From Polytrichum commune (taxonomy: Eukaryota > Streptophyta > Polytrichopsida > Polytrichales > Polytrichaceae), in assembly GCA_950295325.1 (NCBI GenBank), contig OX485805.1, positions 34,273,501-34,337,500 of the forward strand: 64,000 nucleotides of DNA, in the 5' to 3' direction. The translations under genes and the position numbers were made by a program. Each line of letters starts with the position of its first letter. The first letter of the stretch is position 1. Below the pieces are notes generated by a model. It worked only from the letters and a program-made list of their open reading frames with translations. It was not told the DNA's origin and searched no databases. Of the stretch, positions 9-59,392 are shown piece by piece.

Positions 9-430
9 GTTTGGGTCGGTCGACCCAAACCCCTACCCCAGTGTGTTAGAGTTTCTTTCTGACCCTTATGAGGTTTGGGTCGGTCGACCCAAACCCTATC
101 CCAGGGTGTTAGGGTTTATGTCTGATCCTTATCAGGTTTGGGTCGACCGACCCAAACCCCTACCTGGTGTGGGTGGATTTACCCTGTGAAGGTTTGGGTC
201 GGTCGACCCAAACCCCTACCGCAGCTTGGGCGGCTGTAGGTTGACCATGAGAAGGTTTGGGTCGGTCGACCCAAACTTTTTCCCACACCGTGATCGAATT
301 CTGAATGGCCCTGAACCCATCATTGTGCAAGGTTTGAGTTGGTCGACCGAAACCCGACCCCATCCCATGGGCAAGCTGTGGATGACCCTCAATCCATGGT
401 GGCACAGGGTTTAGGTCGGTCGACCCAAAC
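9..430. repeat. Array of seven 22-bp palindromes (left edge)
   Basis: Seven copies of the palindrome with arms GTTTGGGTCG and CGACCCAAAC begin at 9, 73, 136, 192, 255, 332 and 409. Most have central GT; the copy at 136 has AC. The copies at 332 and 409 carry arm substitutions. Spacing is 56-77 bp and the sequence between copies differs, so the palindrome is the conserved part. Open frames here on both strands arise because the palindrome has no stop in any frame; I do not read them as genes. Confidence 0.9.
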
Positions 431-1251
431 CCCCTACCAAAATTTTTTGTGGAATTTTTTTTGGTCTTCCGCACAGTATTGGGAGTTCACATTGTAGTTG
501 TGTTTCAATGTCTTTATCTTCGGTGTCCCTATTGATCATGATGTCTTGCATTTTCCAATATTTGATTCTTTTGGACCCTTACATTGTGTCCATGTGTGTT
601 GAGGTTTGATGTGCATGTGTGTAGGCGTCTGAGGCCAAACCCCCCACCCTTAAGCGTTCGTAGTCCGAGTAGTGGGTTTGGGCTCACATTCCTCCGTGGC
701 ATTGGCCTTAGGCTTGGATGTGTCATTTGATGACTCAAGTGTCCAATTCCTTGCCTTGTACGCGCAAGCCCAAGCGGATATTCCCTTCTTCCTTTTACCA
801 ATGGTTACCTTCACTTCTTTAGGGTCTTTGAGCTCCTCACTAGGTTTGGTTGTTGAGTCCATAGTGCAAGGATCAACTTTTTAACCTCTACTTAATAATT
901 CAATACACCATGCATGGTATGGAAGCATCCAAACACACAAATCTTTATTTGACAATCCAAGTGAATAGTATTAAGAAATATTTTTCTCCAAGGCTTATTG
1001 TCTCACAATCAAAGCATCAAGCCCAACGAGTCTACTCCTCAAGCTTCCTACCCTACCAATCACTTAAACACAACCACCCCAACCTCAAAAACTTAGGAAT
1101 GTGGCTCTTGGTCCATCACAATCACCAAATCCTCATTTTTCTATCTTCCTCCATTTTTTTCATTCAAGGTGAGTAGATTCCCCCATAGAAGAACCCCGGC
1201 AGTCTCCAACAAGACCCTTCCCGAGGTCTCAGTCTCAAATCTCCGGGTGTA
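431..1251. other. Unassigned sequence left of the copia element
   Basis: No recognisable gene. A short minus-strand open frame at 650-862 begins with an ATG and encodes 70 residues rich in Lys, Ser and Thr; it resembles nothing I know and may be chance. Removing the copia insertion joins this stretch to 14112 onward. Confidence 0.4.
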
Positions 1252-1256
1252 ATTTT

Positions 1257-1449
1257 TATTGGGAAATGAAAGGAAGAAGCAAAGAGATCAGCGTAGGAAG
1301 CAAGAACACAATACACAATGGTTGCATACAATGGAGAGAGTGAGTTAGCTCCTTCCCTTATGCCTTTATTTATATGTGTAGGTTAGGACCAGCATTGACA
1401 ACCCATATGGGACAATGTCACCAATGCAACCTAACACTACCTTCCAATA
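1257..1449 (-). repeat. Copia 3' LTR
   Basis: This 193-bp LTR matches 13914-14106 with only a few differences, such as aaatgaaaggaag against aaatgagaggaag near the inner edge. The ends form the inverted pair TATTGG/CCAATA rather than the usual TG/CA. Confidence 0.93.
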
Positions 1450-5852: not shown

Positions 5853-5854
5853 CT

Positions 5855-39468: not shown

Positions 39469-39470
39469 AG

Positions 39471-40443
39471 TGTCGCAACCCTTGCTAGGTCCCTTAACAC
39501 TCTTGCCAATTTTCGTTTCTAGCAAAGGTTACGAGCGCTAACCATTCGCATTCCGCCATGCTAATGGATAGCTCCTCTTACCCCGGACCAATAGTTCATA
39601 GGAGGGAACCAACCCTCCTACTTTGCTTTCGGGACTCACCCCTTAATCGGTAACCCATTTCCCCAATGTGGACTTCCATCCATGGAAGTCCAATCCTATG
39701 TTGATCATCGCGTTGCCGGAGCAACACTACAACAACCCGAAGCATACTAGGCAACTATGGCCTCACAATAGGCCAAAGCCCATGGAGGCCTTGCCGTTCG
39801 GCCTCGGGTGGGTGAGGCCACACCACCTCACCCATATAAGCCTCTAGGACTCAACGCGGGGCCCCTACCCCACCGTCAACCAACCTCTTGTCTCTCTACC
39901 AAGAGTTGGGGCTAAGTGGACATTTTCCCTTAGCTGCTGGGCCTAGAACCCCCCCTGCAGCTTCAGACCATCATAACTTCCTTGTATGATGTCTGATTCC
40001 AGCAACCAACCACTCCATCTTCATCTACGCTTCACGTAGATGCCGATGGACTCCTCCCTTGCCCCATTCGGGCAAGGCTTGAGGAAGTTATGCCTGTTTG
40101 AACCTTGGCAGTCCCGGGAATCACTCCCAGGCACTGCTGTACCAGGGCGCTGTCCCGGGACAGCGCCCCACTCAAATGGCCATAACTCCTAGCTCACACC
40201 TCGGATTGAGGTGTTCTTGAGCATTCTAGAATCACCACGCCATGAGCTACGCATAGCTCATGGCCTTACCCTTGTGCCTCCTAGTCTTCGTGGATGGGAG
40301 GCGTTCCCAACGCCCGGGGACCTCATCCACACTAGGATCACTTGGGCCCTTTCACCAACGGCGCCACAAGTCCCGGGTGTCACTCCGGGGTCCCCCTTGT
40401 GCCCATGGTGTTTCGGGCACTCCTCATGGAGAGGTGCGCGACA
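39471..40443 (-). repeat. Gypsy-like element 3, 5' LTR
   Basis: 973 bp, same subtype as 33168-34140, ending GTGCGCGACA directly before the target duplication GGGAG. Confidence 0.95.
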
Positions 40444-40543
40444 GGGAGGAAGACCCAAATGTGTCACACGTTCATTTTTTAAGTGCAAAATGATTGTAAT
40501 GTGCGGATAACCATGTTTTTTGGGGGGGTTGGGGGGGGTTCAC

Positions 40544-40903
40544 CTTGTCACCGGGGGCGTTCCCGTCGGAGTTGGCGAGGAGGGGCAAGGCATCCCGCAA
40601 AGGAATAGGAAGGGTTCCACTCTTCGTAGGCCGAGCGTCCATCCGCAGCCGCCGTTGAGGTGTACTACTGCCGCCGGGCCGAGAGGGGGATGTCCGGACG
40701 CATATGCGATTTATGCCTTTGAGCGGTGACGGGGACGCAGATCGCCGGAAGATTTGCTTGGGTGGGGGGCTATCGACGACGCCGGCGTCAAGAGGCTCCT
40801 TGGAGTAGCCGATGGTTGACGCGGCGTCGTAAACGGTCTCGTAGAAGAAGCTCCCCAAGTCTGACTCGCTGACGACGTCAATCGAGGGCTCCAAACGCTG
40901 GAG
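40544..40903 (-). CDS. Internal exon of the second minus-strand cargo unit
   Basis: The acceptor CCAATTTTAG precedes the exon at 40903 and the donor AAG/GTGAAC follows at 40544. The 120 codons are open (LQRLEPSIDVVSESDLGSFF, then a Pro/Ser/Arg-rich part). No ATG opens the exon, so it continues from an upstream exon I could not place. That may be the last exon of the ParB-like gene through alternative splicing, or a small lost exon. Gypsy-like elements 4 and 3 sit in the introns on its two sides. No known domain. Confidence 0.5.
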
Positions 40904-40975
40904 CTAAAATTGGAACAAAACAAAACCCAAGGAAAAGGGGGGAGATAGAGCGCGTGAAAATCAAGATACATATGA

Positions 40976-41951
40976 TGTCGCAACCCTTGCTAGCCCCCCC
41001 CTTGACCATCTTGCCAATTTTCAATTCTAGCAAAGGTTACGAGTGGCTAACCCTTCGCATACCGCCATGCTAATGGTTAGCTCCTCTAACCCCGGACCAA
41101 TAGTTCATAGGAGGGAACCAACCCTCCTACTTTGCTTTCGGAACTCACCCCTTAATCGGTAACCCATTTCCCCAATGTGGACTTCCATCCATGGAAGTCC
41201 ACTCCTATGTTGATCATCGCGTTGCCGGAGCAACACTACAACAACCCGAACCATACTAGGCAACTATGGCCTCACAATAGGCCAAAGCCCATGGAGGCCT
41301 TGCCATTCGGCCTCGGGTGGGTGAGGCCACACCACCTCACCCATATAAGCCTCTAGGACTTCACGCGGGGCCCCTACCCCACCGTCAACCAACCTCTTGT
41401 CTCTCTACCAAGAGTTGGGGCCAAGTGGACATTTTCCTTTAGCTGCTGGGCCTAGAACCCCCCAGCAGCTTCAGACCATCATAACTTCCTGGTATGATGT
41501 CTGATCATAACAACCAACCACGCCATCCTCATCTACGCTTCACGTAGATGCCGATGGACTCCTCACTTGCTCCATTTGAGCAAGTCTTGAGGAAGTTATG
41601 CCTGTTTGAACCTTGGCAGTCCCGGGAATCCCTCCCAGGCACTGCTGTACCAGGGCGCTGTCCCGGGACAGCGCCCCACTCAAATGGCCATAACTCCTAG
41701 CTCACACCTCCGATTGAGGTGATCTTGAGCATTCTAGAATCACCACGCCATGAGCTACGCATAGCTCATGGCCTTACCCTCATGCCTCCTAGTCTCCGTG
41801 GGTGGGAGGCGTTCCCAACGCCCGGGGCCCTCACCCACACTAGGATCACTTGGGCCCTCTCACCAACGGCGCCACAAGTCCCGGGTGTCACTCCGGGGTC
41901 CCCCTTGTGCCCATGGTGTTTCGGGCACTCCTCATGGAGAGGTGCGCGACA
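40976..41951 (-). repeat. Gypsy-like element 4, 3' LTR
   Basis: 976 bp, apparently identical to 47064-48039. It carries family-specific changes such as TTGCTCCATTTGAGCAAG in place of TTGCCCCATTCGGGCAAG, a compensated change in both arms of a small hairpin. Confidence 0.95.
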
Positions 41952-42949
41952 CTCACCCCCACCAAACGGAGTCGATGCCCTCATCGACTATACTCGTAGT
42001 CGGCACACCAATTCTCAAGTTGCCATCCTCTATGGTGCGGCATTGTGTTTACCTTAGGGCGCGACCCCCACAATGCATCTTCAAATTTGGCATAGTCCCA
42101 AAGGTGTCGTTACTAGGCGGTCCGTTAGCGACCTTGGAACTCCTCCAAGGACCTAACCTACAATAGACCCACCTACTTTGAGACTCACTTGGGTTGCCCC
42201 TCCTTTGGGGCCTCCCCCGTTAGGCTCCACTAGCCTAACATGACACATCTAGGCGAGACCTCAACGCTTCCACTAAGTTGTCTCGGTTGCAACTCCGAGA
42301 TGGCTTTCCATTGTTAAGCCACGCCTCGATCGCACGGGGGTGATGCCAAGTCCCGCCCGACTCGGTTCCCACTTTGCTCTTTCGAGACATGGGTTCATGA
42401 CTCCCATGCGCCAACTCTCGTTAGCTCGCGGGTAGCACTTTTATGAGCACGCGCCATCACCTTGTCCCCGCCCGGACAAGCCCACTGCTAAGAGGTTTCT
42501 TGGTTTTATCCAAGGCCCCTCCAAGCCATGGCCCCCAATTACTCGGCTTACCCAACCTAGTTTGGCATGTCTATTCCCCCTCTTCCATTAACCAAGCACA
42601 AGTACAAGACTAGGACCTCATCTCATACTTTTCTCTTTGCACCACTAAAGTTTGGACTTTATTCCCTCAAGCCAAAGAACAAGTTCATGTTGTGGAGCAA
42701 TTAACCTCGAAGCTAAGTGTGCTACTAGCGTCTCTCCCCCACTAAAGGAGATTGATGTCCTCATCAATGCCTACGCTTCATTTTATTGGAATCCTTAGCC
42801 TTAGTTTCTTCAAAGTGCTTCACCAATTCATTGGTGTTCACCATGTCTCTTGCCGCTACCCAAACGGCTTCATTCTATCCTCACCATTTCACCAAGTAGT
42901 CCTTTGTACATTTTCTTTCATTTTTACTTGGGCTTCCTACACTTGAGGA

Positions 42950-45900
42950 TGGCCTCCTACCTCATGTTCCAAATGACGTCCACAAGGTGGGGAGGTGGCC
43001 TAATCACTTGCTTGTGATCGGGCCACAAGGTGTCGTCCTTAAATGGTTTTAGGAATGAGACATGAAATGTCGGATGCACTTTGATCTTGGGCGGTAATTC
43101 CAACTTATACATGTCCTTGAACACTTGTTCCACCATGGAAAACGAAGCTCCAATTTTGGACATGAACTTTTGGAGTAATGCCTTTGGGCAAGGTGAAGTT
43201 GTCCACATTCAACAACACCTTATTGGCCCACCTCATACTCCACTTCGCGTCTTCCGGCATTGATTTGCACGCCGTAGCACCTTCGGGCTTTCTCCACCAA
43301 CAACTTGGTCATCTCCAAGACTTGTTTACCATCCTTGGCCAAGTCCTCACCATCTTGGTTGAACTCTAGTGTTGAATGTGCCCCCTCGAGAGCTAGGTTA
43401 ATAGGTTGGAGCGCATCCACTCCATAAGCCACCACGAAAGACCACCCCTTGGTAGCCAAGTGCGTGGCTACATTGCAATTACACTCCGCTCGACCCACAT
43501 AGTCCGCCCAATCTCCTTGGTCCGCCCCCACCAAGTTCCTCAAGTATTGCTTCAAGACTCCATTCACACGCTCCGTTTTCCCATCCATTTGGGAATGCAA
43601 GGCCGTGCTAAACCTTAGTTTCATTCCGACCTCCTTAGAGAAATGCATTGAAAATGCACTTGTGAACTTTGGATCTTGATCCCACACAATCACTCTTGGC
43701 AACCCGTGGTGCCTCAACCATCCTTTGAGAAAAGGCTATGCGGTCTCCAACGCGGTGGCGGTTCCCACAATCGGCACCATGTGTGCCAACTTGGCAAACC
43801 GCTCTACCATCAACAAGATGGCATCATATCCATGTGACTCCGGCAAACTTGTGATCAAATCCATGCACATAGTATGCCATGGCCCCGACGGGATAGGCAA
43901 CGGTTGCAAGAAACCGCCTTGCTTTTGATAAGAGGCTCGGTTCACTTGGCACTTTGTTCACGCCTTCACAAAGTGGGTTATATTCTCTTTTATGCACCGC
44001 CAATGGTACCTCTTTGACACCATTCTATGGCAGCTTTTTCTTTCTCCTCTATGGCCGGCAATAAGACTATCATATTCCTCCTTCAAAACCGATAGCCTCA
44101 ACTTGCCTTGTGTCACATACACCCAACTTTGCTTGCACTTGAACAATCCGTCCACCAACTTAACCTCTTTGAGCACCTTGCTCTTGCGAAGCTCACCTAA
44201 AAGCTTTTGTGCTTTGGGGTAGTTAATTTACCCCTCCCGTATCTTGCATCACAAGTTTCCTTCGCCGGCACACATTAGCCACAAGGTTTGGATGGTTCTC
44301 ATTGCTTGGAACTCTTCCGGTCTACTTCGCGCATCCGGCACCACATTTCCGCGGTCCGGTTTGTGGATCAAATCCACGTTCATAAGCGCCAAACTATCAT
44401 GCCACCGCAATGACTTGGCGCTCACTTGCGCTTGAATGTCAAAATTCTTTTAGGACCCATTGTCCATATAGACCTTTGCTTTGTGCGACCCCAAATAGTG
44501 TCGCCACATCTTCAAGTAATGCACTACGGCAAAGAAGTTGTTTGGCATGAGTTGGTTGTCTTCTTTGATAACCATCGAGCTTCATGCTCCCATATGCAAT
44601 GGCCATCCATCTTAAATCAACAATCCGCCATTGGCAAAGTCACTCACCCCCATATGCACCTCAAAAGGTTTGTCAAGCTCCGCGAACTTGAGCACGGGCG
44701 TCTAAGAGAACTTGCTCTCAAGCTCCCCAAAGACTTGGTGGCAAGGCTCCTCCCAGTCTTGGGATAGCCAATTCTTCCACAAGTCGGATAAGGTCGGATA
44801 ACCATCAAGCTTAACACTCTCATATGCAATGGCCATCCATCTTACGTTAACCATCCGCCAATGGCAAAGTCACTCGCCCCCCCCGTATGCACCTCAAAAG
44901 GTTTGTCAAGCTCCGCGAACTTGAACACGGGTGGCAAAGACAACTTTGTATTAAGCTCCCCAAAGACTTGGGGACAAGGCTCATCCCACTCTTGGGATAG
45001 CCCTTTCTTTCACAAATCGCACTAGGTTCGACAACCATTAAGCTTAATGCTCCCATATGCAATGGACATCCATCTCGGATCAACATCCGCCAATTGTAAA
45101 ATTACTCGCCCCCATATGCACCTCAAAAGGTTTGTTAAAGTCCGCGAACTTAAGCACGGGCGGCGAAGAGAACTTGTTTTTGAGCCCCCCAAAGGCTTGG
45201 TGACAAGGCTCATCCCACTCTTGGGATAGCCATTTTCCTCAATAAGTTGAATAAGATCCTAGGAACCTTAGAAAACTCTCGAATGAAGTTGTGGTACTAA
45301 TTGGCTAGGCCAACAAATGACCTAAGCCCTTTTGAATCAAGGGCCAATTCTCCTTTTGGATTGCCTTGACATTCTTCATGTTCGTCCACCAACTTCCTTT
45401 GTCACCACATACCTCTAGAACTCAATCTCTTGTTGAGCAAAGTTATTTTTCACTCCTTGGCGGCAATTTTTTTTTGGGCAACACATTGGTGAATACATCC
45501 TTGTATCTCACCAACATCACACCAATGTTGTTTGGGGGAGGCCCATCTTTCCTAGCCTCCCCATACGTTCCTTGGAGTTGCTCCAATTGAACCACGTCCA
45601 TTATGCTTTCTATTTTTCATTTGGTCCATTAAGACCAAATTCAACTTAGATCCTCCTACCATAGGAGTCCTTGTCAATTTGAACTTCAATTCTTTGTCAT
45701 TATAACACATCATAATGCACCGCAAGCACACCGGCTTGCACCTCACATCTATCAGGTGAGTTTCAAAGAAGGCGGCCTTCACAATGACATGCATTTCATC
45801 TATTTCACTTGGTGTGAAATTTTGACAAAAATCCAATGTCCCACATTGAAAGGTTACATGCATCGCCGCCTCCTTTGCTTCATGCGGTTCGCCCTTTGCA

Positions 45901-47012
45901 AACCGTACTTTGGTGGGCTTGCCGGCTCTACCCGTCCGCGAGCCCCAACCCCCTTGTGAGCTTTCGGCTCATGAAAGAGTCCGTTGCCTCTTTGACAACT
46001 CATGAGACATATCTCCCATTCATTTGAGCCTCAAGGTATACATGACTTGGCCTTGGCTTAAGGCTACTAGCCTTGGCCACAAAGCCACCATCTAATTCTC
46101 CCTCCACCGCAACAATATGTTTTGGCTCGGTCCGCAAAGCCAACTTTTAACATTTCGTCCGTGGGACGAGTTGGTTTAGTGCCACAAAAGCAATTTCCAA
46201 TAATTTGTCCACAAAACAAACATGTTTTCCCTTGATAGCACAAAGCCACCTTCCCACACTCCGTATGCGGCACGAACATGAATTGCCTTGGTAGGACAAA
46301 CCCACCTTCCAACATTCCGTCCGCGGCATGAGTATGATTTGCCTTGGAAGCATAAAGCCACCTTTCAACATTCTGTTAGCGGCACCAACATATTTTGCCT
46401 AAGTAAAATGAACCAAACAATTTGCACTCATTTCTTTGGGACCAACTTTGGCTAAAGCCACTTGTGGTGATGCGCCGCCAAACTTTTCTTCGGGACCATC
46501 GGATTCAATGATCTTGCAAACTTGATGATCCCCACCATGTCCTCAAGAAGCCTTGGGGACTTAAACAAGGCATCCACCACCCGCTTTTAAAACCCCACCT
46601 AAAACGATGCATTTCTTAGAAAGCTCGTCCGTTTTAGGTGTATCCTTCATTTGTGCGTTTGAATAGCGCACATAGGCCTTAAGAGGCCCCGGGTGCCTCA
46701 TTAGCACCAAGTTCATTTCAACATCCGAACCTTCGAAGCATTTCGAATTGAAATTTCAATCCAACATTAACACCCTCCAAGGTTTTGGGTGCATTCGGTA
46801 TTCTAGGCCCCAAATACTATTTGAGGTTTGCGGGAGCCCTTTCAAAGGACACCTCCATTTTCCTCACCGAATCCACCCTCATGCCCACCATTACCATTAA
46901 AATCAATGGTATGGTCAAACTCCATTTGCACATGATCCTTGTTCCAATTTGAGCCTCACAACCTTTTGGAAACCCCGGGCTCACCATCATAACCCGCATT
47001 TTTGATACCCAT
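42950..47012 (-). pseudogene. Gypsy-like gag-pol remnant, element 4
   Basis: Minus strand: gag remnant 47012-46600; degraded Cys-rich units 46370-46070; protease-like part 46030-45550; RT remnant with the shared palm deletion near 45530-45400; RNase H repeats about 45240-44600; zinc-binding and integrase parts 44176-43220; a C-terminal segment at 43208-42957 with HPTFHVSFLKPFKDD. This tail is more open than in the other copies. Confidence 0.86.
43220..43945 (-). pseudogene. Integrase core of element 4
   Basis: It has two pieces in one frame with the family's shared stop between them. MDLITSLP, VWDQDPKF and DGKTERVNG show the catalytic Asp, Asp and Glu; the Thr before Glu is the residue usual in gypsy integrases. 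The frame ends earlier than in the sisters because of a shift near 43220. Confidence 0.85.
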
Positions 47013-47041
47013 GTTTCCCTCAAAGTGCGAGCTCAAAACTT

Positions 47042-47061
47042 GGAACCCTGCTCTGATACCA
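47042..47061 (-). other. Primer binding site, element 4
   Basis: The complement reads TGGTATCAGAGCAGGGTTCC, next to the 5' LTR at 47064. Confidence 0.9.
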
Positions 47062-47063
47062 AG

Positions 47064-48039
47064 TGTCGCAACCCTTGCTAGCCCCCCCCTTGACCATCTT
47101 GCCAATTTTCAATTCTAGCAAAGGTTACGAGTGGCTAACCCTTCGCATACCGCCATGCTAATGGTTAGCTCCTCTAACCCCGGACCAATAGTTCATAGGA
47201 GGGAACCAACCCTCCTACTTTGCTTTCGGAACTCACCCCTTAATCGGTAACCCATTTCCCCAATGTGGACTTCCATCCATGGAAGTCCACTCCTATGTTG
47301 ATCATCGCGTTGCCGGAGCAACACTACAACAACCCGAACCATACTAGGCAACTATGGCCTCACAATAGGCCAAAGCCCATGGAGGCCTTGCCATTCGGCC
47401 TCGGGTGGGTGAGGCCACACCACCTCACCCATATAAGCCTCTAGGACTTCACGCGGGGCCCCTACCCCACCGTCAACCAACCTCTTGTCTCTCTACCAAG
47501 AGTTGGGGCCAAGTGGACATTTTCCTTTAGCTGCTGGGCCTAGAACCCCCCAGCAGCTTCAGACCATCATAACTTCCTGGTATGATGTCTGATCATAACA
47601 ACCAACCACGCCATCCTCATCTACGCTTCACGTAGATGCCGATGGACTCCTCACTTGCTCCATTTGAGCAAGTCTTGAGGAAGTTATGCCTGTTTGAACC
47701 TTGGCAGTCCCGGGAATCCCTCCCAGGCACTGCTGTACCAGGGCGCTGTCCCGGGACAGCGCCCCACTCAAATGGCCATAACTCCTAGCTCACACCTCCG
47801 ATTGAGGTGATCTTGAGCATTCTAGAATCACCACGCCATGAGCTACGCATAGCTCATGGCCTTACCCTCATGCCTCCTAGTCTCCGTGGGTGGGAGGCGT
47901 TCCCAACGCCCGGGGCCCTCACCCACACTAGGATCACTTGGGCCCTCTCACCAACGGCGCCACAAGTCCCGGGTGTCACTCCGGGGTCCCCCTTGTGCCC
48001 ATGGTGTTTCGGGCACTCCTCATGGAGAGGTGCGCGACA
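47064..48039 (-). repeat. Gypsy-like element 4, 5' LTR
   Basis: 976 bp, apparently identical to 40976-41951, ending GTGCGCGACA before TATGA. Confidence 0.95.
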
Positions 48040-48073
48040 TATGAAGCGTAAATTACACAAAATGGGCAGGCGC

Positions 48074-48108
48074 ATATACACACACACACATACAAACACA
48101 CGTACTGT
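48074..48108. repeat. CA-rich microsatellite after the cargo gene stop
   Basis: An imperfect (CA)n stretch (ATACACACACACACATACAA and on) between gypsy-like element 4 and the stop codon of the ParB-like gene. Confidence 0.7.
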
Positions 48109-48109
48109 C

Positions 48110-48922
48110 TCAAATGAGGTTGTTAAATTTCGCGTGAGATAACAACTCTCTGTACAAATGGTTTCGTGGATCCAAGTATCTCTTGCCTATGGGATTATTC
48201 CTAACAAAATTGTTTACGGGAAGTCCGCTTCCCCAGAGCGCCTGGAGGTATTTACTAAGGTCTAACAAAAATCGGTCCCGGACCTTCTCGACCGTCCACG
48301 TAGGGCACACTATGAAGTTGGCCGTCGGGTTCAACATGTTCTTTGCGGCGCTGTCGTCCACCATGAGCGTGTTCTCGCGGGTGGGGCGGACGTCGTAGGG
48401 GACGCCTATCAAGGACGGTCGCTGGTCCCAAAAAATGGGCTTCAAGACCTTGAGGTATTGGGGGGAAGCGGGGTTGTTTGGTTTTTTGACGACTTTGCCG
48501 TCCTGTGTGTACAATATTCTACAGGCTTCCTGTGCTAGGACCATGCAGGGGGGCTCGATGCCCTTGAAGATGAACTCCACGACCGCATTGGTGTTCTCGG
48601 CCGTCATGGAGCTCCACACGACCACCCACCATCGTTGTTGGGCGATCTGGAGGAAGGTCCGAAGCCACGGGCGGAGGTGAACTAGCTTGCTCTTTATGAA
48701 CGTGGGCGGCCCGTCGTAATTAGCGTCCTCGGGCTTGCAAAAGGGCACTGTGGGGGCCCTAGGGCAATGAACGCACTGCACGAGGACACCGTTCAGGTCT
48801 AACACCAGGAATCGTTTCTTCGGCAGCGGGGGCGGGGCGGGTAAAACCGGGGGGGCCGCCGTGCTGCCCTTTGCGCTCCTTGGAGAAGAGCGTCGGGGAG
48901 CCGCTACGCTATGCTCCGAGCC
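48110..48922 (-). CDS. Exon 5: FCP1/NLI-type phosphatase domain
   Basis: Acceptor TATCCGCAG precedes 48922, phase 0, and the stop is at 48110. After a Pro-rich start the HAD-fold motifs follow: FLVLDLNGVLVQC (motif I, with Asn at the second catalytic position), VVVWSSMTAENT (motif II Ser), a Lys near FWDQR, and LMVDDSAAKNM (the Asp pair). HLRPWLRTFL is the typical helix of this family. FCP1-like enzymes dephosphorylate proteins such as the RNA polymerase II tail. The Asp-to-Asn change occurs in some plant homologues and may lower or abolish activity. Confidence 0.7.
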   Translation of the reverse strand, partial: GSEHSVAAPRRSSPRSAKGSTAAPPVLPAPPPLPKKRFLVLDLNGVLVQCVHCPRAPTVPFCKPEDANYDGPPTFIKSKLVHLRPWLRTFLQIAQQRWWVVVWSSMTAENTNAVVEFIFKGIEPPCMVLAQEACRILYTQDGKVVKKPNNPASPQYLKVLKPIFWDQRPSLIGVPYDVRPTRENTLMVDDSAAKNMLNPTANFIVCPTWTVEKVRDRFLLDLSKYLQALWGSGLPVNNFVRNNPIGKRYLDPRNHLYRELLSHAKFNNLI

Positions 48923-51900
48923 CTGCGGATACGATCGAGAGAAAACGGTGGGCGACTTATGTCATGCTATGTCCAAACGAAGCATTAAGGAAACGAGTGT
49001 TCTTGGTGCAAACACAAAACCAATTGATTCATTTTGGAGGGGGTGCAACAAGGGATACAAGAGAGACAAGAGCATACAAAATACATTCAAACACAATATA
49101 CAAGTATATAGGAGTCAAAAATGGTGATTGTATTGTATACAATGCTCTATGTACATTTTGATTGGGGGGAGCCGCGTTGAACAATGCGTTCAAACTAGCC
49201 TACTTCTAAATCTAAGAAAATTTGAAGAGACGGGCCGCCGTGATGAAGACTTCGTCGCAAGCCGGGGTAGGTGGACGAACGAATGGTCGGGGGGATGTGG
49301 CGAAGGGCGCGAGTGCCGGGGGGGCGACGTGTGTGTGAGTTTAGGGTAGCTAGGGGACACGACCAAGGCAAGAAGACAAAGACCCATGGAGTTTGGGTCG
49401 ACCGACCCAAACTGAGTGGGGTCAGTGCATTACCTCGCCTTGGTCGTGCCTTGACGACGTTGATGCTGGCATCGCCTGCGCTGCCCCACCTCTGTCACCG
49501 CCGCCTCCGACGACGATGTCAACCGCAACCTGCTCCTGCAAAGGCTGACTGTCAGGCCTTTGTCCCAACCCAACCTCCGCATGCGCATCATGCATTGGTT
49601 CATCGACTGGGTTAGGAGTAGAGGTATCACCAGGCCCTTGCGGGCCTTCAACGTCTAACATGGGCTCGTCCACCGGGGTCTGGTCGGGGACGGGGTTTGG
49701 GTCGGCCGACCCAAACCCTGCTGCTTGGCGAGCGTCGCTCTGGGACGCTGCAACGTCGGCACTGTTTGGGTCGGACGACCCAAACATGTGGGGGTCGTCC
49801 CGCTGGTGGTGTGGGGGCGAGAGGATGGGAGGCCGGAGCGGCGGGGGCGCCAACGAGCTGGACGCTCCGGGGACGCGCCAAAGGTTGGGGTCGTCCACCT
49901 GCTGGACGGGCGCGTAAGGACGGGCGTGCGGCTGCAGCAACTGTGCGAAGCTGAAGGAATGCTGCAGCGTGGGCCGCGGGGCGATATCCTGTGGCGGGAA
50001 GCCTGCGGGCAAGTGCGGGAATGAACTCGGGGGAGCCATCACCAATCCCTGCGCCAGCATGCCCTGGATCATTTGCGTGATGAGCTCCGCTTGGGACGGA
50101 GTTTGGGCGATCGCCCTTTGCCGCTCCTGCTCCAACAGGAGAGCCCTCAAGTCCGCGACTTCGTTGCGGACCGAGGGTTCCTCGGCGGCAGCCCTGTGCA
50201 GTCGCACACGCTGCTCCTCGTCTCGGAGCATTTTCGCGTTCGCCTCCTCCACGGTGAGGACCTCCGGTTTCACCCTCACATTCCCGGCGAACGCTCTGGG
50301 GGAGGCAGGATCCGACCTCAGCCTCTTGGCGAGTTCCATGTCGTCCTCGTCCTCTGAGCTTATTGCGATTGTCTCCTCCACCGCATAGTCCCCGTACAGC
50401 TTCTTCCCCTTCATCCTTCTCCGCTCCCTGAAGGTGGCCGTCGCGTCCCTCGAGTACATGTCCTTCGTGTCGTCCACCGTCAACGCGGGCACCAGCCTGC
50501 TTTGCGGCGTGGCAGGCCGCATGGCCTTCTTCCGCTGAGGGGCCTCGGATTCTTGAGTGAATCCTGTTGCCCCTTCCTCCACCTCCCCCTCCACTTTCTC
50601 TGCTTCCTCCTCCTCCTCCTCCTCCCCCCCCCTCCTCCCCAACCTCGCCACCTGCTCCCATCGACGGATTGCCCGGATGCAACCCGATGAGCGGCTCTGG
50701 CAATTGAACGGGGGCACGCATGGCGAATTCACCCGGGTTGATTCGCCTCGCCATATCCAAAGGATTCTCGCCCCCCTCGACTATCTCTTCAACGTAGGAT
50801 CCGGGTATCCAGTCAAGGATGTCCATTTTCTTGGCCAGTGCCTTCTGGGTCCTGTAAAATTGAACATCGGCATCCTCCACATAGGAGTAGATGTTCAACC
50901 CAGACATCTGCACAATCCAAATCAATAGTATTAGTATAAACTAATGAAGAGTAAGGAAAATGACATCCAAAATAAAATAAGAATAGTTAGTTTGGGTCGA
51001 GCGACCCAAACTAGGGCATGCACAGTTTGGGTTGAGCGATCCAAACTAGGGCATGCACAGTTTGGGTTGAGCGATCCAAACTATGTTTGCCCCTAGTTTG
51101 GGTCGCTCGACCCAAACTATGGGCATACCCAGTTTGGGTCGCTCGACCCAAACTAGGGGCAAACATAGTTTGGATCGCTCGACCCAAACCGTCCGTATAG
51201 GGCTTTCAGGGTTCTTTGCTTACCATTGCTGCAAAAATCGGTTTGGATCCCCCGAAAACGTTGAAGATGCAGTCCCCTCTCTTGGTGAGGGTCCTCATCA
51301 TCCGCAGGTAGAACTCCATGCGCAGCTCATCCGCGGGGTAGTTGGCGTACTTCGCCTCGTCATACAAGCTCCTGCTGGTACCCAACCCTTATTGGACTTG
51401 GAAGAGCTTTTCCATCCTGGCTATAGGATGGTTGGGCACCTTAAGTCAGCTTTGTACACGAAGTACAAGCACAACACGTTGACGATCTTCGTCTTCTTGT
51501 CTTTCAACGTGCTGTACGCCCCCTCCGCCGGTGCAGCAACGTAGTGAGATTTCGAGACGGCATACTCCGGCTGCAATTTGCGCACGATCTCGTAAACCTG
51601 CTCTGCCCTCCTGTCCTCGACAATCCAGAGCCAGACGTCGACCTCCCTGAATTTGGGGCTGGCGTAGTCCACGAACTTCGACAAGAAAGGATCGTAAAAA
51701 GGGGTGCTCATAGTCCCCTCGAATGAGGCTCCAGGGATATTCCTGAAATCTATCATTCCGAAGGGGAAGCGGTCCCCAGCTTTAGTCCTGATCGCCTTCC
51801 TGGACTCAGAGCCCGGCCAACCTTGGATCCTGAGAGGCTCGACGGTGACCATGTTGAATTGCGCATCGCCTTCGAAACTGACGATCTTCTTCTCCTTTAT

Positions 51901-54116
51901 GAAGTTGGAGAAGGCCCGCGCTGAGTGTTCGGGAAGCACCCGGTTCCTCCCCCCCTTCACGAGCTTGGATCTGAGGAAGTCGTCTCCCGCCTCCCTCATG
52001 AGTGCCGCCATGGACGCACTAGTGAACTTATATTCGGCTTTGAAGGCCCTCCAGTGCGCCTCGTCGACCTCTCCGTCCACGATGAGCTTCTTCTCTGGCA
52101 CAAGCTTGTGCAGCTCTTGGACGATGGTCGTCTTCTTCTTCCTGTTCTCCGTCCATTCCTTCATGGTGTAGCATGAAGGGACGAAGATCTTGGGTTTGGT
52201 GAAGACGATCTTGGGGTGGACCCAACATCTCTTCGCCGTCATCTCCACGTGTAGGATGTGGGACGCTGCTTTTCCCATCTCTGTCTCGGAAAGACCTTGA
52301 AGCGCTCTGAAGAACTCCCTCACCAGAGGCTTCATTTGCTTGAAGCGCGTAGTCTGGTTGAAGAGCATGCCGGTGTCGGGGTCCATAAGGTCCCCCGTCT
52401 CATGTTTTTCAAAAACACTCCTCCATTTTCCCCACACGGAGTCGGACGCGGTGATCAAATACATTTCTCCTCGCAACTCGTTATACTTTTTTTGCTTGTG
52501 GCTAGCATTGTCTATCGAGGAGAATTTATTGATCATCTGATATTTGAAGTCCTGCACACGTAGCCAACAATTCATGTTAGACAACATCTCATGGAATAAC
52601 AAATGTAACAGCAGTTTGGGTCGATCGACCCAAACTATAAACCTGGTAAAGACAACAAAGCCATGGAAGAGTTTGGGTCGAGCGACCCAAACTATAAACC
52701 TGGTAAAGACAACAAAGCCATGCAAGAGTTTGGGTCGAGCGACCCAAACTATGAATTTGTTGAAGACACTAAAACAATGAAAGAGTTTGGGTCGGTCGAC
52801 CCAAACATACTCACCTCCCATTTGGGGTTCTTATCTTTAGCATTCTCCCTTTCCCTGGGAGGCCTGCCATAAAACTCCCACACCTCCCTCGAGGCCATGA
52901 TGTTTCTGATCCACGATGCCTGATAGGCCCTCTTTTTGTTTCCCATGTTGAAGAACCTGGAGATGTCGCTGAGGACCGTCTCGTTGTCCGACCAAACCAC
53001 CAAAGCCTTCCAAACTTTTAGTCTCTCCTTCTGGTTGTTCGGGTCGTTCCACTCGGTCATCAGCTGGATTTTTTTTGATGCCTCCACACTGTGCTGCCCG
53101 TCAATCAACCAGAAGTCTCCTTTGGAGATTGTCGGCCACATATCAGGCGTCGGCATTCTCTTCAACCCTTGTGGCATGACAACAATCGTCTGCCTGTCGT
53201 CCTTGAACTGCCCGCCCAAGATTTGAGCGACCATCCAGTCGACGTAGGCGTCCTCCTTGGCTCGGACACATTTCTCGGGTGGCGCAAGGTGGCACTGCGC
53301 AATGTTGACCTCGAACTTGAAGTCCCTGCCCATGAAGAAGCAGTGCAGGCATTTTGTTTCGAAGTTGGTGTTTATTTTTTGTATTTCGCCTGCATCCACC
53401 TCCTGGCCAGGCTTCGGCATCCGGAGCTCCGGGGAAACATGCTCGTCAGTCATCACCGATGACTCTCTTCCCCTTTTGGAAGGGGTCGTTTGACGGCTTG
53501 TTGATGGCGTTGTTGTAGTACTTGTCCGTCTCGACTCCACAGGGACCGCCCGCGGTTTCCTCACAGTTTGTGGTCTTGAGGACCCTGCGCCTTCTTCCGT
53601 CGTTGCCTTCCGCCTCACAGGCTGTTGTGTCTTGGGTTTGCTTTGCAGCGCCTTGTTTAGAACCGTGATGGCCTGTTTTAACTTTGTGAACCTGCTCGCA
53701 ACCTTCGTGTTGGTTACACTGCCATCTATGAATATGGCCTCCGGTTGTATGGTTTCAGGGTCGACGCAGGTCTCCTTGGCGTACAGGGGGTCGAAGGGCT
53801 CGGAGAACTGGTGCATGAACATGTGGACGTTCTGCACGGCGGAGTTCTCCAGTATGACGTCTACATAGTCCCCGAGAGACTGGACAGACGCAACCTCCCA
53901 TTCCGTCAGCGTTGCCCAGGTGTGCTGCTCGTGGGTCCCCACCTTCACCACGAATAGCAGCTTGAACATGGATGCCTTCACCACCTGAACGGACCATGCC
54001 AGAACGACGCCATCTTTTGGGACGTAAGAATCGTCCTGTGGAGTTTCATACTCCTGCCAAAGGTGGTCTGGCGCGAGCATGAACCACCTTTCACCTGGTC
54101 TCTTTTTAGGGGCCAT
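48110..54116 (-). CDS. ParB-like / methyltransferase-like / FCP1-like multidomain cargo gene (five exons)
   Basis: Exons by splice sites and frame: 54116-52815, 52551-51440, 51374-51224, 50907-49434 and 48922-48110. Lengths 1302, 1112+151 and 813 are each divisible by three. Exon 4 (1474) is off by one, matching a clear frame change at a 9-C run (50624-50632). With that indel set aside the protein has about 1,616 residues. In order: unknown N-terminal domain; ParB-like DGQH domain (about 270-350, IDGQHS at 338); methyltransferase-like region with TPFYDPF (about 717) and NVFGGSK (about 843), in permuted order; long disordered and coiled linker (about 930-1345); FCP1/NLI-type phosphatase domain from about 1385. 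The gene is transcribed away from the DUF7869-like gene. I know no described protein with this combination. Domain names rest on motifs only. Confidence 0.65.
49391..49412. repeat. Single palindrome in intron 4 of the cargo gene
   Basis: A perfect copy with centre AC, 22 bases past the exon 4 donor. Confidence 0.9.
49434..50907 (-). CDS. Exon 4: disordered linker with palindrome-encoded peptides
   Basis: Acceptor TTGTGCAG precedes 50907. The first part (SGLNIYSYVEDADVQFY) completes the methyltransferase-like fold. The exon then passes through a Gly/Glu-rich stretch where the frame changes at a run of nine C (50624-50632), and continues in the frame with EEEEEEEAEKVEG, an acidic EDEDD segment, a helical ALLLEQERQRA and a Pro-rich tail. 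Two palindromes at 49764-49785 and 49695-49716 are translated as FGSSDPN and FGSADPN. The exon ends at donor GCGAG/GTAATG (49434), phase 0. The indel may be a sequencing error or a disabling mutation. Confidence 0.6.
49695..49785. repeat. Two palindromes inside coding exon 4
   Basis: Perfect arms at 49695-49716 (centre GC) and 49764-49785 (centre GA). These two centres were not seen elsewhere. They add FGSADPN and FGSSDPN to the protein in frame. Confidence 0.9.
50990..51189. repeat. Six palindromes at 35-36 bp spacing in intron 3
   Basis: Copies begin at 50990, 51025, 51060, 51096, 51132 and 51168. They occupy most of the 316-bp intron between exons 3 and 4. The linkers are themselves inverted (CTAGGGCATGCACAG, and later GGGCATACCCAG). 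Centres are AG for the first three and CT for the last three. Confidence 0.9.
51224..52551 (-). CDS. Exons 2 and 3: methyltransferase-like region
   Basis: Exon 2 (52551-51440) follows acceptor GTGTGCAG. Exon 3 (51374-51224) follows a 65-nt intron (GTGCCC...ACCAG) whose removal bypasses a TAG and restores frame. After a Lys-rich helical part come STPFYDPFLSKFVD, then DVWLWIVEDRRAEQVYEIVR and KIVNVLCLYFVYK. Exon 3 gives RMMRTLTKRGDCIFNVFGGS. This resembles class-beta DNA methyltransferases, where a DPPY motif comes before the SAM-binding FxGxG motif. Both motifs are degenerate (TPFY and FGGSK), so activity is doubtful. The alternative is an unrelated Rossmann-like fold. Confidence 0.5.
52614..52806. 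repeat. Four palindromes at 57-bp spacing in intron 1-2
   Basis: Copies begin at 52614, 52671, 52728 and 52785, with centres AT, AG, AG and GT. The repeat unit also holds AAACCTGGTAAAGACAACAA. They fill the 263-bp intron between exons 1 and 2. Confidence 0.9.
52815..54116 (-). CDS. Exon 1: N-terminal and ParB-like domain
   Basis: The ATG at 54116 directly follows an acceptor (TTGGGTTGCAG/ATG), so the leader is a separate exon upstream. Residues 1-160 form a globular domain I do not recognise. 160-225 is Ser/Thr/Arg-rich and disordered. About 270-350 reads CHLAPPEKCVR, QTIVVMPQ and FWLIDGQHSVEASKKIQ. This is the layout of a ParB N-terminal (ParB/Srx) fold, in which IDGQHR lies in the nucleotide-binding pocket. 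In bacteria and phages such domains are often fused to DNA methyltransferases. The exon ends at donor GAG/GTGAGT (52815), phase 0. Confidence 0.65.
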
Positions 54117-55362
54117 CTGCAACCCAAGAAATCGAAACTGTGAGTTTCGGTCGATCGACCCAAAGTATTGCAATGTGCATTTAACATTTGGAGGATTGAC
54201 TCAAACATTACTTAATTTTCAAAGTCGTTTTAAAAGATCTTTTAGATTTTAAATTGTGGTTTAGGTGGTCACCCTGCAATGTTTGAGTCGAGCGACCCAA
54301 ACATGATGAGGCTGCAAATTTAGGTAGTTTAACCCATTCATTTCAGAGTGCAATGTTTGGGTCGAACGACCCAAGGTCCCAAACATTTACTTAATTTTCA
54401 AAGCTCTTTTATATTTTACAATGTGTTTTAGTTCTTCTCCGTGTAATGTTTGGGTCGACCGACCGAAACATGTTAGGCTGTAAATTTAGGTAGCTCAACC
54501 CAATCATTTCAGACTGCATTGTTTGGATCGCACGACCCAAACATTTACTTAATTTTGAATGTTCTTTTATATTTTATAATGTGGTTTGTTCTTCTCCCTG
54601 TAATGTTTGGGTCGAGCGACCCAAACATGATGAGGCTGCAAATTTAGGAAGCTCAACCCATTCATTTCAGACTGCAATGTTTGGGTCGAACGACCCAAAC
54701 ATTTACTTCATTTTCAAAGTTCTTTTATATTTTACTATGTGGTTTGTTCTTCTCCCTGTAATGTTTGGGTCGAACGACCCAAACATGATGAGGCTGCAAA
54801 TTTAGGTAGCTCAACCCATTCATTTCAGACTGCAATGTTTGGGTCGAACGACCCAAACATTTACTTAATTTTCAAAGTTCTTTTATATTTTACAATGTGG
54901 TTTGTTCTTCTCCCTGTAATGTTTGGGTCGAGCGACCCAAACATGATGAGGCTGCAAATTTAGGAAGCTCAACCCATTCATTTCAGACTGCAATGTTTGG
55001 GTCGAACGACCCAAACATTTATTTAATTTTCAAAGTTCTTTTATATTTTACAATGTGGTTTAGTTCTTCTCCCTGTAATGTTTGGGTCGAGCGACCCAAA
55101 TATAATGAGGCTCCAATGTTTGGGTCGCTCGACCCAAACAAGACGCTGCAATGTTTGGGTCGAACGACCCAAACATTTAGTTCATTTTAGGCTGCAATTC
55201 AAATATTTATTATATTTTAATATGAGTTTGGGTGGTCTCCCCAAACTACTGTGTTTCCAAATGCATGTTTAATGCTTGGGCAACATATACAATGCTTATG
55301 CATTGTATATGTAACAGGAACCTAAAGGGAATGATGCAAATTGTGTGCACTGATGCAAATTG
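54117..55362 (-). other. Leader intron of the cargo gene with palindrome array
   Basis: The donor AAG/GTAAGC is at 55363/55362 on the minus strand and the acceptor TTGCAG lies just before the ATG at 54116. Nearly all of it is palindrome array. It matches 31829-32080 of the left copy, which breaks off within it. Confidence 0.6.
54145..55246. repeat. Palindrome array with 158-bp higher-order unit
   Basis: Palindromes begin at 54145, 54281, 54355, 54448, 54521, 54605, 54679, 54763, 54837, 54921, 54995, 55080, 55118 and 55153, with a decayed one at 55226. From 54281 the higher-order unit is about 158 bp and holds two palindromes, usually with centres AG then AA. The linker between pairs also holds a decayed palindrome (TTTAGGTAGCTCAACCCA). 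Confidence 0.9.
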
Positions 55363-55990
55363 CTTACCTTGTCTTTCAAACTCTTGAAAGCTGCTCTCAC
55401 AATCTGCTTCTTACAACCAGACTCAGAAACTCTGTTGTGGCACTAAAGAACAACTCTCACAAAGATCTCAGAAACACAATGAATCTCTCAAGCACCCTAA
55501 AACTTTCTCACAAACCCCCTGATTCTTGCAAACTCAGGCCTAATTTGAAAGACCTCTACCTTTCTATCACACTCGACCGTGCTCACTTCTACTCAACCTA
55601 AAATCACTCCATGCATGAAATTTACAAAACAAGTAAGGAATTCAATACAATAAACCGCTCCGAACTCACTCAAAGCTAACACTCTGGACCAAGAAGAGAG
55701 AATAACAAGAGGAAGACAATAACAAGAGGAATAGAATGAGAGAAGAGGAGGAGAAGCATCATAGAGGAGGACAGGAACGAAGGAGAAAGAAGAATGAAAG
55801 GAAGCGGCGCGACCAAGACAAAAGCAAAAGGTGTGAAAGGAAGCGCTTGGCGCGGCGCTATGGAAAGCGGCGGCGGCGTTTCCAAGAGCGGCGCTTGGCG
55901 CGGAGGAAGAGAGGAAGAAAAAGAGAGAAAGAAAAAAGAGGAGGGGAGAGAAGGAGAGAGCGGAAGGGGTCACCCTAAACCCTCGAATCC
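55363..55990 (-). other. Leader exon of the cargo gene (non-coding)
   Basis: Read on the minus strand this is a pyrimidine-rich leader ending in AAG/GTAAGC at 55363. It could encode a short peptide from an ATG near 55997, but the left copy does not keep that frame, so I treat it as untranslated. The start of transcription is not visible. Confidence 0.45.
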
Positions 55991-56746
55991 GGGCCATTAG
56001 ATTGCGCCGGGCCCATCAACGGCTCAGAAGCCTCGCAGGCCAACACCCTGCCAGGTGTCGACACCTCCTTGGTTAAGGTGGTTGCCCGCGAGGCTTGTGG
56101 TGTTGACACCTGCCACCCTAGGCAGATTGCCTTCCTGGTTGTCCTTGCCCCTAGGTGCAGGACATAGGAGGGCCGGCGCCTCTCTTGGCCGCCCGGCCCC
56201 GGCCTTCTAACCCGCTATTCATTAGCGGCAATTCAATACCACTCAAAAACCTACGTGGACTAAGGTATTCCACAAAATTAACACCATCGCCAACTCATAT
56301 TTTAATGGTGTTCAATTGAATGATCACCCGTTGGAATTGATAACATCGTAGAATGTAGCCATTATCGTTTTGGTGTATGAATAATGTAATTTATGGAATC
56401 ATATGAGAGTGTTACAAAGTCTAAGAGGAGTAAGTCATAATTATATTGCAATCCACAAAGGCAATTACACAGTGCAATAATATAAATATGGTAACCATTC
56501 ACATGGTTAACAGTTTAGGATTATGTATTGTAATTTATATGATGGTTGTTGGTAGAGGACAATGCTCTAGTCTATAATGGATACCCTAACAAGTAGCATT
56601 AGAGTGAACATTAATATATGTACTTAGAAGTTCACATTTGAAGTACATGGGAGAAACAAATGATTACAAATGTATCTACTGCAACCCCATGGAGTTCACA
56701 TATCATATGAAGTCATTTAAACATTCAATTTGATGTTTGATGATGC

Positions 56747-56773
56747 CTAAACCCTAAACCCTAAACCCTAAAC
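56747..56773. repeat. Short CCCTAAA telomere-like tract, right copy
   Basis: Mirror of the tract at 30311-30337; just under four units. Confidence 0.85.
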
Positions 56774-57595
56774 AACACAAACCATAACTGGATGGCACAT
56801 AGGTCAAATGACATGGGCCTTGGTGTTTGTAGTTTCCAATACAAATGTATAATGTCATCACAACATCCTAATTCACAAACGTGAAAGATGGATGTGTGGT
56901 TTTTCGCGAATGAACGCACTAAAGGAAATAAATGATATTGTGCTCACAAGTAGGTGATACAATATTAACCTATAACCTTGTCACCTGGTAAGAAGAGCAT
57001 AAGAACTAGATTATAATATTAGATAGGATGTTGTTCATGTTAACATGTTATTATGGAATAGTGAAATATTATATATTAATTTAAGGTAGATTTCATGTTG
57101 TGAATGATATGAGGACATACCTTTTGAACTTTGCATGTTTTGCTCACACACATTGCTAGACTTCAAGGGACTTCACGATAGGTTCAAACATCATTGAAAC
57201 ATTGAATGTGCCAAATGTCATTTGTGGTTTATGGTTCCATTAATGACTTCCACATAGGTACTAGGTTATTGTCACACTTGGATCCTTGAGGATGAAGCAA
57301 TATTGGGTGCACACATTACAACACAACAGATGTTCTTTTAACTAGCGGAAATTGAAAGTTGGCCAAATTATTCAAGTTTGTCATGGCATTAATTATTTGT
57401 TTTCAAAATATAAGTCCTCATGTGAGAGTGTAAGTAATTGCATTAACTATTATATTTAGTGACTTTTAGTGACTTTTAGTATATGAAGTTTTGTAATACA
57501 TGCACATCTTTTGTCAATATATTGTTTGAAATATACCATAATGTTTGACTACAAGTAGAGTAAAACCCCTTAATAGATATAATCTTACATATTGT

Positions 57596-57730
57596 CACAG
57601 GGTTATTGGTATTCAGTGTATGCGTTCATATGTAGTGTATCAAAATCTTTATATCCTTTTTAGTTATATGATAGTTAGTGTTTGATACACTTAAAACGAA
57701 CGCATACACTTCCTATTACTAACCCTATGA
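57596..57730. repeat. MITE-like inverted repeat, right copy
   Basis: Same inverted arms as 29367-29502, with GTGTATGCGTTC and GAACGCATACAC facing each other. Its presence in both copies shows it inserted before the large element duplicated. Confidence 0.7.
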
Positions 57731-58132
57731 GAGTAAGTAACATTAAATGTAAACTCAAACACTAAATATCCACTGTGGTGATATATGGAAGTTACATATA
57801 GGAATTTAGTATTAGTAAGGATGTGAGAAAAAAATACAACAATGATAAAAGGAGAAAGGAGATGGCAATAGGGAAGGTGGTGGTGTATTCATGTATAAAA
57901 CTAATTATGAAAGAGTTGAAGAATAGTGTTGACCAAGTTAGGGTGGTAACAACTTTAAATAATATATGTTGAATTATTCATTTCATGGTTGGGGCAACGA
58001 AGAGCCAAGCTAAATATACATTGTCTATTATTGACAGAAGCGGGAAATTGAGTCAAAAGGTTTGAATTAACGTCCAAAGGAGACCAGGCGGGAAAGGCAT
58101 CCAAAGAGGATGCCCAAAGCGGAGGCGGGTAG

Positions 58133-58139
58133 TATAAAG
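58133..58139 (+). promoter_or_regulatory. TATA box for the right DUF7869-like gene
   Basis: TATAAAG in the context GCGGGTAG-TATAAAG-AGCCC, identical to the left copy. It is followed by a leader, the 78-bp palindrome array and the ATG at 59606. Confidence 0.6.
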
Positions 58140-58353
58140 AGCCCAACCCCCCCAAATGCTGGTTCTTTCTTTCATGTCCCAATCCTGAGATTGCTGCAAG
58201 CTCTCTAAGTTGGAGCTGTAATACACGGTTTGTGTACGTTTCCATTCATGAGCAGCTAATTACAACAAATATCTACGAGTTCAGTTGTTCCAAATAGGTT
58301 ATATATAGATTAATAGAGAATCACCCGAATAAATAGGCGGATTTTGCGGAATT

Positions 58354-59392
58354 GTTTGGGTCGGTCGACCCAAACCCAACCTTACAGTGTGGGTGCTCTC
58401 TGTTGTGAGCCTGAACCCATCCTACCTCAAGGTTTGGGTCGATCGACCCAAACCCAGCCCTATAGTGTGGGTGCTCACTGATGTGAGCCTGAACCCATCC
58501 TGCCTCAAGGTTTGGGTCGATCGACCCAAACCCAGCCCTACAGTGTGGGTGCTCACTGATGTGAGCCTGAACCCATCCTGCCTCAAGGTTTGGGTCGATC
58601 GACCCAAACCCAGCCCTACAGTGTGGGTGCTCACTGTTGTGAGCCTGAACCCATCCTGCCTCAAGGTTTGGGTCGATCGACCCAAACCCAGCCCTACAGT
58701 GTGGGTGCTCACTGTTGTGAGCATGAACCCATCCTGCCAAAAGGTTTGGGTCGGTCGACCCAAACCCAGCCCTACAGTGTGGGTGCTCACTGTTGTGAGC
58801 CTGAACCCATCCTGCCAAAAGGTTTGGGTTGGTCGACCCAAACCCAACCCTACAGTGTGGGTGCTCACTGTTGTGAGCCTGAACCCATCCTGCCAAAAGG
58901 TTTGGGTCGGTCGACCCAAACCCAGCCCCAAAGTGTGGATGTTGTGTGTAGTGAGCCTGAACTCATCCTGCCTCGAGGTTTGGGTCGCTCGACCCAAACC
59001 CAGCCCTCTAAGTGTGGGTGTTGTCTTTAGTGAGCCTGAACCCATCCTGCCAGAAGGTTTGGGTCGATCGACCCAAACCCAGCCCTCTAAGTGTGGGTGC
59101 TCTCTGGAGTGACTCTAAACCCATCCTGCCAAAAAGTTTGGGTCGCTCGACCCAAACCCAGCCCCCTAAGTATGGGTGCTCATTATCGTGACCTTAAACC
59201 CATCCTGCCAAAAGGTTTGGGTCGCTCGACCCAAACCCAGCCCCCTAAGTATGGGTGCTCCTTGTCGTGACCTTAAACCCATCCTCCCAAAAGGTTTGGG
59301 TCGCTCGATCCAAACCCAGCGCCTAAGTGTGGGTGCTCTCTGTATTGAGCCTGAAACCTCCTCCCAAAAGGTTTGGGTCGCTCGACCCAAAC
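58354..59392 (+). repeat. 78-bp palindrome array, right copy (14 units)
   Basis: Palindromes begin at 58354, 58432, 58510, 58588, 58666, 58744, 58822, 58900, 58978, 59057, 59136, 59215, 59294 and 59371. The period is 78-79 bp, and the last step is 77. Centres run GT, AT x4, GT x3, CT, AT, CT x4. The linker carries CATCCTGCC and GTGTGGGTGCTC. Long open frames on both strands follow from the period and the stop-free palindrome. Confidence 0.94.

Follow-up and report, generated by a model that had tools for sequence, protein, structure and literature searches.

Arrays of a 22-bp palindrome in predicted introns of a large ParB-fold-gene DNA transposon of Polytrichum commune

Within a 64-kb window of the Polytrichum commune genome (GCA_950295325.1, contig OX485805.1, positions 34,273,501 to 34,337,500; coordinates below are those of this stretch of 64,000 nucleotides), we identified a real and unusual feature: arrays of a palindromic site in predicted introns of a large DNA transposon, here termed element B, which carries a gene with a ParB-fold domain. 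The site comprises two arms separated by any two bases (GTTTGGGTCG-NN-CGACCCAAAC) and is present in 44 exact copies spanning positions 9 to 59392, rising to 53, 58 and 60 copies when up to one, two and three mismatches are allowed, respectively, in agreement with the roughly 60 copies of the original prediction. The palindrome is far from chance, given that ten dinucleotide shuffles of the window yielded no 22-mer within three mismatches of it. On balance, we lean towards a reading in which the transposon itself encodes a homodimeric, sequence-specific nucleic-acid-binding protein that has the palindrome as its target.

Consistent with the fixed arms and variable centre first described, all eight previously listed centre classes were found and the centre is free, yet its usage is uneven: with strands merged, the 60 copies comprise AG/CT (24), AC/GT (15), AT (9) and AA/TT (7), along with the rarer CC/GG (2), GC (1), GA/TC (1) and CA/TG (1). 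Tandem units of the palindrome clusters measure 36, 57, 78 and 158 bp, the periods already noted, and additionally 63 bp. The proposal that the palindrome itself is the unit being kept, amid differing flanks, was likewise upheld. Mean pairwise flank identity over 12 hand-picked representatives was 0.34, compared with 0.30 for random sequence, the highest pair (0.78) corresponding to the arrays near 28 and 58 kb, which are copies of one another. Arm identity also exceeded spacer identity in all six array sets, representing 54 of the 60 copies, in a comparison somewhat biased toward the arms by the selection of copies on arm similarity: 0.983 versus 0.781 for the 78-bp arrays (23 units), 0.943 versus 0.411 for the left array (7 units), 0.930 versus 0.367 for the array at 51 kb (6 units), 1.000 versus 0.743 for the array at 52 kb (4 units), and 0.941 versus 0.762 (8 units) and 0.983 versus 0.897 (6 units) for the arrays at 54 kb. 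Because flanks differ and arms are better kept than spacers, a plain multi-copy repeat was rejected. Searches of IMG/VR contigs and of GTDB contigs returned zero palindrome matches in each. In the open-licence literature, the matches listed for the text string GTTTGGGTCG were all unrelated by title, and among those listed for palindromic tandem repeats of introns or transposable elements, mosses included, nothing was evidently this feature.

Contrary to their initial description as dispersed, the copies are not randomly placed: 42 of the 60 lie in element B, a complete transposon, 11 in a truncated copy of it (copy A) and seven in a 63-bp array at the left edge of the window (9..430, + strand), whose owner element extends beyond the window and which is 66-67% similar to the array at 58-59 kb. 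Element B (32259..63191) was delimited by terminal inverted repeats, flanking ACGT and self-comparison, and measures ~16.6 kb after discounting two nested long terminal repeat (LTR) elements and their target duplications. Its left terminal inverted repeat, AACACTATATTCGTTAAATTGAGACTT (27 bp; 32259..32285, + strand), is matched by an exact reverse complement on the right (63165..63191, - strand), as expected of a cut-and-paste DNA transposon. Between these termini lie two divergent genes, one encoding a transposase-like DUF7869 protein and the other a protein combining a ParB fold with a NIF (NLI-interacting factor-like) phosphatase domain. Among the 42 palindromes of element B, 39 fall in five predicted introns of these genes, two in coding exons and one, at 32519, in the left terminal stretch.

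Four of the five introns belong to the ParB-fold gene (- strand), for which exon boundaries were predicted from splice signals and homologue ends. Predicted intron 1 (54117..55367) holds a 158-bp array with 14 palindromes and is followed by exon 2 (52815..54116), assigned from homologues, alignment and predicted fold. The predicted structure of exon 2 has the ParB/sulfiredoxin fold of the nucleotide-binding domain that characterizes the ParB family, and its DGQHS region, R285, N390 and N393 are conserved in an alignment of 33 sequences. Predicted intron 2 (52552..52814) contains a 57-bp array of four palindromes, the first of which begins at intron base 9, the preceding exon end being supported by homologues. 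Exon 3 (51224..52551) is conserved and matched no known domain, and in this copy its reading frame is interrupted near 51421; its ending, FNVFGGSKP, prompted consideration of a methyltransferase, which found no support from Pfam, and a PDB search with this exon gave nothing useful. Predicted intron 3 (50908..51223) carries a 36-bp array of six palindromes, and predicted intron 4 (48962..49433, acceptor end approximate) a single copy at 49391. These two flank the low-complexity exon 4 (49434..50907), in which an apparent frame change occurs within a GAG-repeat stretch; its two palindromes, at 49695 and 49764, contain no stop in either open frame and translate as FGSADPN/FGSSDPN or VWVGRPK/VWVVRPK. 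Exon 5 (48110..48961) encodes the NIF phosphatase domain (PF03031, Pfam), an instance of this domain type within a transposon gene. Relatives of the ParB-fold protein were not confirmed among IMG/VR and GTDB contigs, and among the matches listed from the open-licence literature none was evidently a eukaryotic transposon bearing a ParB domain.

The fifth intron precedes the DUF7869 gene (PF25273; 59605..62506, + strand), assigned several exons from Pfam and homologues. A 78-bp array of 14 palindromes (58354..59392, + strand) lies between a TATA-like box (~58133) and the likely DUF7869 start codon and, in view of the upstream box and an acceptor-like end ahead of the start codon, is probably a 5' intron, the least secure of the five. 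The protein shares 49% identity with a Physcomitrium patens homologue (P0048), for which modelling suggests an RNase H-like fold. No paper on DUF7869 was found in the open-licence literature.

Palindromes are also present in introns of related genes from other contigs, where predicted proteins continue past the donor of exon 2 and acquire intron-2 tails showing VWVDRPK, FGSIDPN or LGRPTQ, which correspond to the three frames of the palindrome. Among 44 exon-2 homologues, 15 contain an exact translated palindrome, which lies past the donor in 14 and N-terminally in one; among 45 exon-3 homologues, 13 contain one, always at the C-terminal end corresponding to intron 3. With one change allowed, the numbers increase to 18 of 44 and 16 of 45, respectively; these counts are non-independent, and shuffled-protein controls for both sets almost never produced the palindrome. 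Identities to the window proteins are mostly 64-92%, with a few of 31-61%, so that these homologues represent other lineages of the ParB-fold gene, and introns 2 and 3 occupy positions common to the related genes.

The same tails provided a view of how the two arms change between lineages. The 74 tails used (1,520 residues) derive from 89 proteins, those whose exon end escaped the search pattern being dropped. Of 19 near-matches in them that differ by one or two residues, 15 are compatible with a perfect palindrome at the DNA level, compared with control rates of 0.04-0.39 depending on frame and number of changes; in frame 2 just three of seven were compatible. As rows repeat lineages, no combined probability was calculated. 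Changes visible directly on both sides were observed at pair 8/15 in two copies of homologue P0195, with a third copy, visible on one side, in agreement, and at pair 5/18 in one copy of P0192. Frame-0 variants such as VSGDRPK (P0141, P0143, P0146) are visible on one side and are compatible only. Palindrome compatibility alone is a weak criterion, and compatible windows over whole proteins (181, versus 107-145 in ten shuffles) are dominated by coding sequence and were not used as evidence. At the level of translated sequence, more of the related-gene variants thus appear compatible with change in both arms than would be expected under random mutation. The idea that mutations in one arm should be matched in the other consequently held in part between lineages and failed inside the window, where 16 of the 60 copies are mutated and in none was the Watson-Crick partner restored.

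The fixed letters of the arms, their symmetric change between lineages and their multiplication in non-coding sequence fit a dimeric reader evolving together with its site. We infer that a protein of the element binds these sites, the most likely binder being the product of the ParB-fold/NIF-phosphatase gene. In the mechanism we envisage, tandem duplication would multiply the sites within the introns and the 5' non-coding sequence of the two divergent genes, leaving the coding sequence unharmed, and binding of the protein would tag copies of the element as its own, most likely to protect them from silencing, the role that VANC plays in VANDAL elements, or else to control their transcription. 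Bacterial parS sites are palindromic and ParB proteins act there, for which reason the ParB-fold product is the leading candidate. As in ParB-parS systems and KorB operators, clustered palindromic sites lie next to a gene with a ParB nucleotide-binding fold; unlike those systems of bacteria and plasmids, the sites here are within introns of a eukaryotic transposon. A GERR-type motif is a feature of ParB proteins, in place of which DGQHS is found here; ParB proteins also bind CTP and read parS through a helix-turn-helix. A parS-like system, in which the ParB-fold protein would load at the intron palindromes, spread and coat the element, shielding it from silencing or organizing its copies in the nucleus, is a considerably less probable proposition.

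Among eukaryotic transposons, the element protein TNPA of CACTA (En/Spm) elements binds subterminal motifs. Element B resembles these in its many copies of a short motif, for which binding is here presumed, and differs in that its exact copies occupy internal introns and not the vicinity of the ends. By analogy, the closest system in its working appears to be the VANC arrays of VANDAL, a Mutator-like group of Arabidopsis, and we claim no membership of a named system. Hosaka et al. 2017 (PMC5735166) report VANC signals from introns as well as from intergenic and terminal non-coding sequence and describe a motif that occurs in tandem repeats and co-evolves, and Sasaki et al. 2023 (PMC10398659) describe host methylation aimed at those target regions; according to both papers, the motif differs between related elements. 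VANDAL and element B thus share the placement of motif arrays in non-coding sequence, predicted introns accounting for 39 of 42 copies in element B. Conversely, the motif of VANC21, YAGTATTAY, has nine bases and is not palindromic, and that of VANC6 has eight bases (PMC5735166), compared with a palindrome of 22-24 bp here; the candidate protein here has a ParB fold, and its anti-silencing role is proposed by analogy. Pfam named no VANC protein domain in the open reading frames scanned, though diverged proteins may escape sequence searches. Should the element's own protein indeed read the sites, the VANC strategy would recur in another group of transposons through a protein of different fold, providing a ready system for studying the joint change of a transposon protein and its targets, with the two-arm lineage changes serving as natural site variants for testing with their own proteins. 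Should the element prove to have a functional clamp of ParB type, this would be unexpected for a eukaryotic transposon.

A number of observations weigh against a self-encoded dimeric reader. Immediately beyond the 22-mer, 53 of the 60 copies have a complementary base pair whose letters vary by cluster (G-C 28, T-A 14, A-T 11; non-complementary at 255, 28723, 51168, 52785, 54355, 58354 and 59136), and just 18 of 60 have one at the second position outward. A complementary yet variable outer pair is not what a plain dimer site predicts, and suggests past pairing or palindrome-making. With regard to placement, the 2,963 bp between the 5' ends of the two genes of element B contain no palindrome and only degenerate copies occur near its termini, unlike the intergenic and terminal sites noted for VANC. 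The exon-2 sequence profile found no ParB chain in PDB, a ParB DNA-reading domain was not shown in the gene product, and a Pfam scan of 32 exon-3 members gave no match below E 0.016. Exact palindromes were absent from the 120 DUF7869 homologues listed of 251 found, two of those 120 containing it with one substitution. The homologue counts also lack independence, as noted, and read-through translation detects only copies close to an exon end, so that absence elsewhere is uninformative. Lastly, four of the 19 near-matches are incompatible with a perfect palindrome, namely LCLATQ (P0131), FGRSTQ (P0148), MGRPAQ (P0195; its M possibly a start-codon artefact) and LGRPNQ (P0207), as are all four further windows with three residue changes, which had no control and stand outside the 15 of 19.

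Of the three readings originally offered (dimer-binding site, RNA hairpin and self-propagating insert), we nevertheless judge the dimer-binding site best. A role at the RNA level, with hairpins or duplexes between copies in pre-mRNA introns affecting splicing, export or small-RNA production, is possible though considerably less probable. It would accord with the concentration of copies in predicted introns (39 of 42) and their absence between the genes, and with the freely varying, complementary outer pair (53 of 60). Predicted folding of intron 2 RNA reaches -101.1 kcal/mol, compared with -61.2 in shuffled controls (z -8.94), and pairs the arms of different copies with one another, but folding of this kind would be expected of any array of palindromes. 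Furthermore, structure alone needs no fixed letters, yet the arms are constant across unrelated flanks; no compensated pairs occur in the window; transitions in sense RNA show no G-U bias, with eight wobbles and nine mismatches in a count that omits 32519 and uses strands assigned by the analyst, leaving the hairpin without wobble-pair support; and Rfam gave no match window-wide at the gathering threshold.

That the palindromes are bound by the transposase-like protein DUF7869, serving transposition or self-repression in the manner of subterminal repeats of other DNA transposons, appears doubtful. The 14-copy array directly upstream of the DUF7869 start codon, the suggested RNase H-like fold and degenerate copies towards each terminus (32421-32619 and 62979) point in this direction, though the copy at 62979 may be chance, having seven mismatches, a level reached 15 times in the window versus a shuffle mean of 11.4. 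Against this, exact copies are internal and not subterminal, and the listed DUF7869 homologues lack the exact palindrome, though their exons need not adjoin an array.

A self-propagating palindrome or introner-like unit that landed incidentally in these introns would explain identical cores amid differing flanks, the two copies within exon 4 and, through palindrome-correcting copying, the complementary outer pair, and has a parallel in the introner elements of Amoebophrya with inverted repeats of 8-20 nt (PMC7789003); it is, however, unlikely, as two copies of a single transposon account for 53 of the 60 palindromes and the four LTR elements for none, introns of related genes hold the palindrome, most copies are tandem units including their spacers, and no steady direct repeat was seen in the flanks of the 12 representatives. 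The association of inverted repeats with introns is shared with those introners, from which the present case differs in that introns 2 and 3 are at positions common to related genes and the intron ends lie outside the repeat.

The four related LTR elements, ~7 kb each (about 4880-12010, 20659-27729, 33166-40443 and 40976-48039), have long terminal repeats 99.6-100% identical by self-comparison and are therefore recent; since none of the 60 copies lies within them, an LTR origin of the palindrome was ruled out. Self-comparison also identified copies A and B as two inverted copies of one element, with identities of 97% over 2371 and 1082 columns, 94% over 3304 and 90.5% over 1023, falling to 74% over 591 columns in the intron-1 array. 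Copy A has a similar end at ~16802, and its likeness to element B ceases near 32074; it retains a 78-bp array inverted relative to that of B (28096..28744, - strand, nine palindromes) and the beginning of the intron-1 array (31953..32073, + strand), with two palindromes at 32016 and 32052 within three mismatches. An inverted third fragment of the DUF7869 region (15799-16803), 84% identical to 59599-60599, abuts the end of copy A. In both copies, the shared region separating the two genes contains four tandem telomere-like repeats of TTTAGGG type (30310-30337 and 56746-56773).

The candidate target duplications of element B, ACGT at 32255..32258 and 63192..63195, may be part of the inverted repeat, from which they are not separable because ACGT is self-complementary; at the corresponding end of copy A the flanking bases are TTGT. 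Elements of the Sola superfamily combine a Sola transposase with a 4-bp target duplication, and were considered as a lead only. The superfamily is listed in PMC4455052. Near the left terminus, 98-bp repeats (32404..32694) contain degenerate palindromes at 32421, 32519 and 32619, in which the 22-base form is degraded and its symmetry lost; the copy at 32519 is counted among the 60. C-rich tandem repeats (63343-63951) lie directly beyond the right end of element B. Elsewhere in the window, we identified a tandem repeat with a 120-bp unit (12736-13673; 7.8 copies, 96% matches) and a Copia-type polyprotein reading frame of 1038 amino acids (1871-4987, - strand) with RVT_2, rve and related domains.
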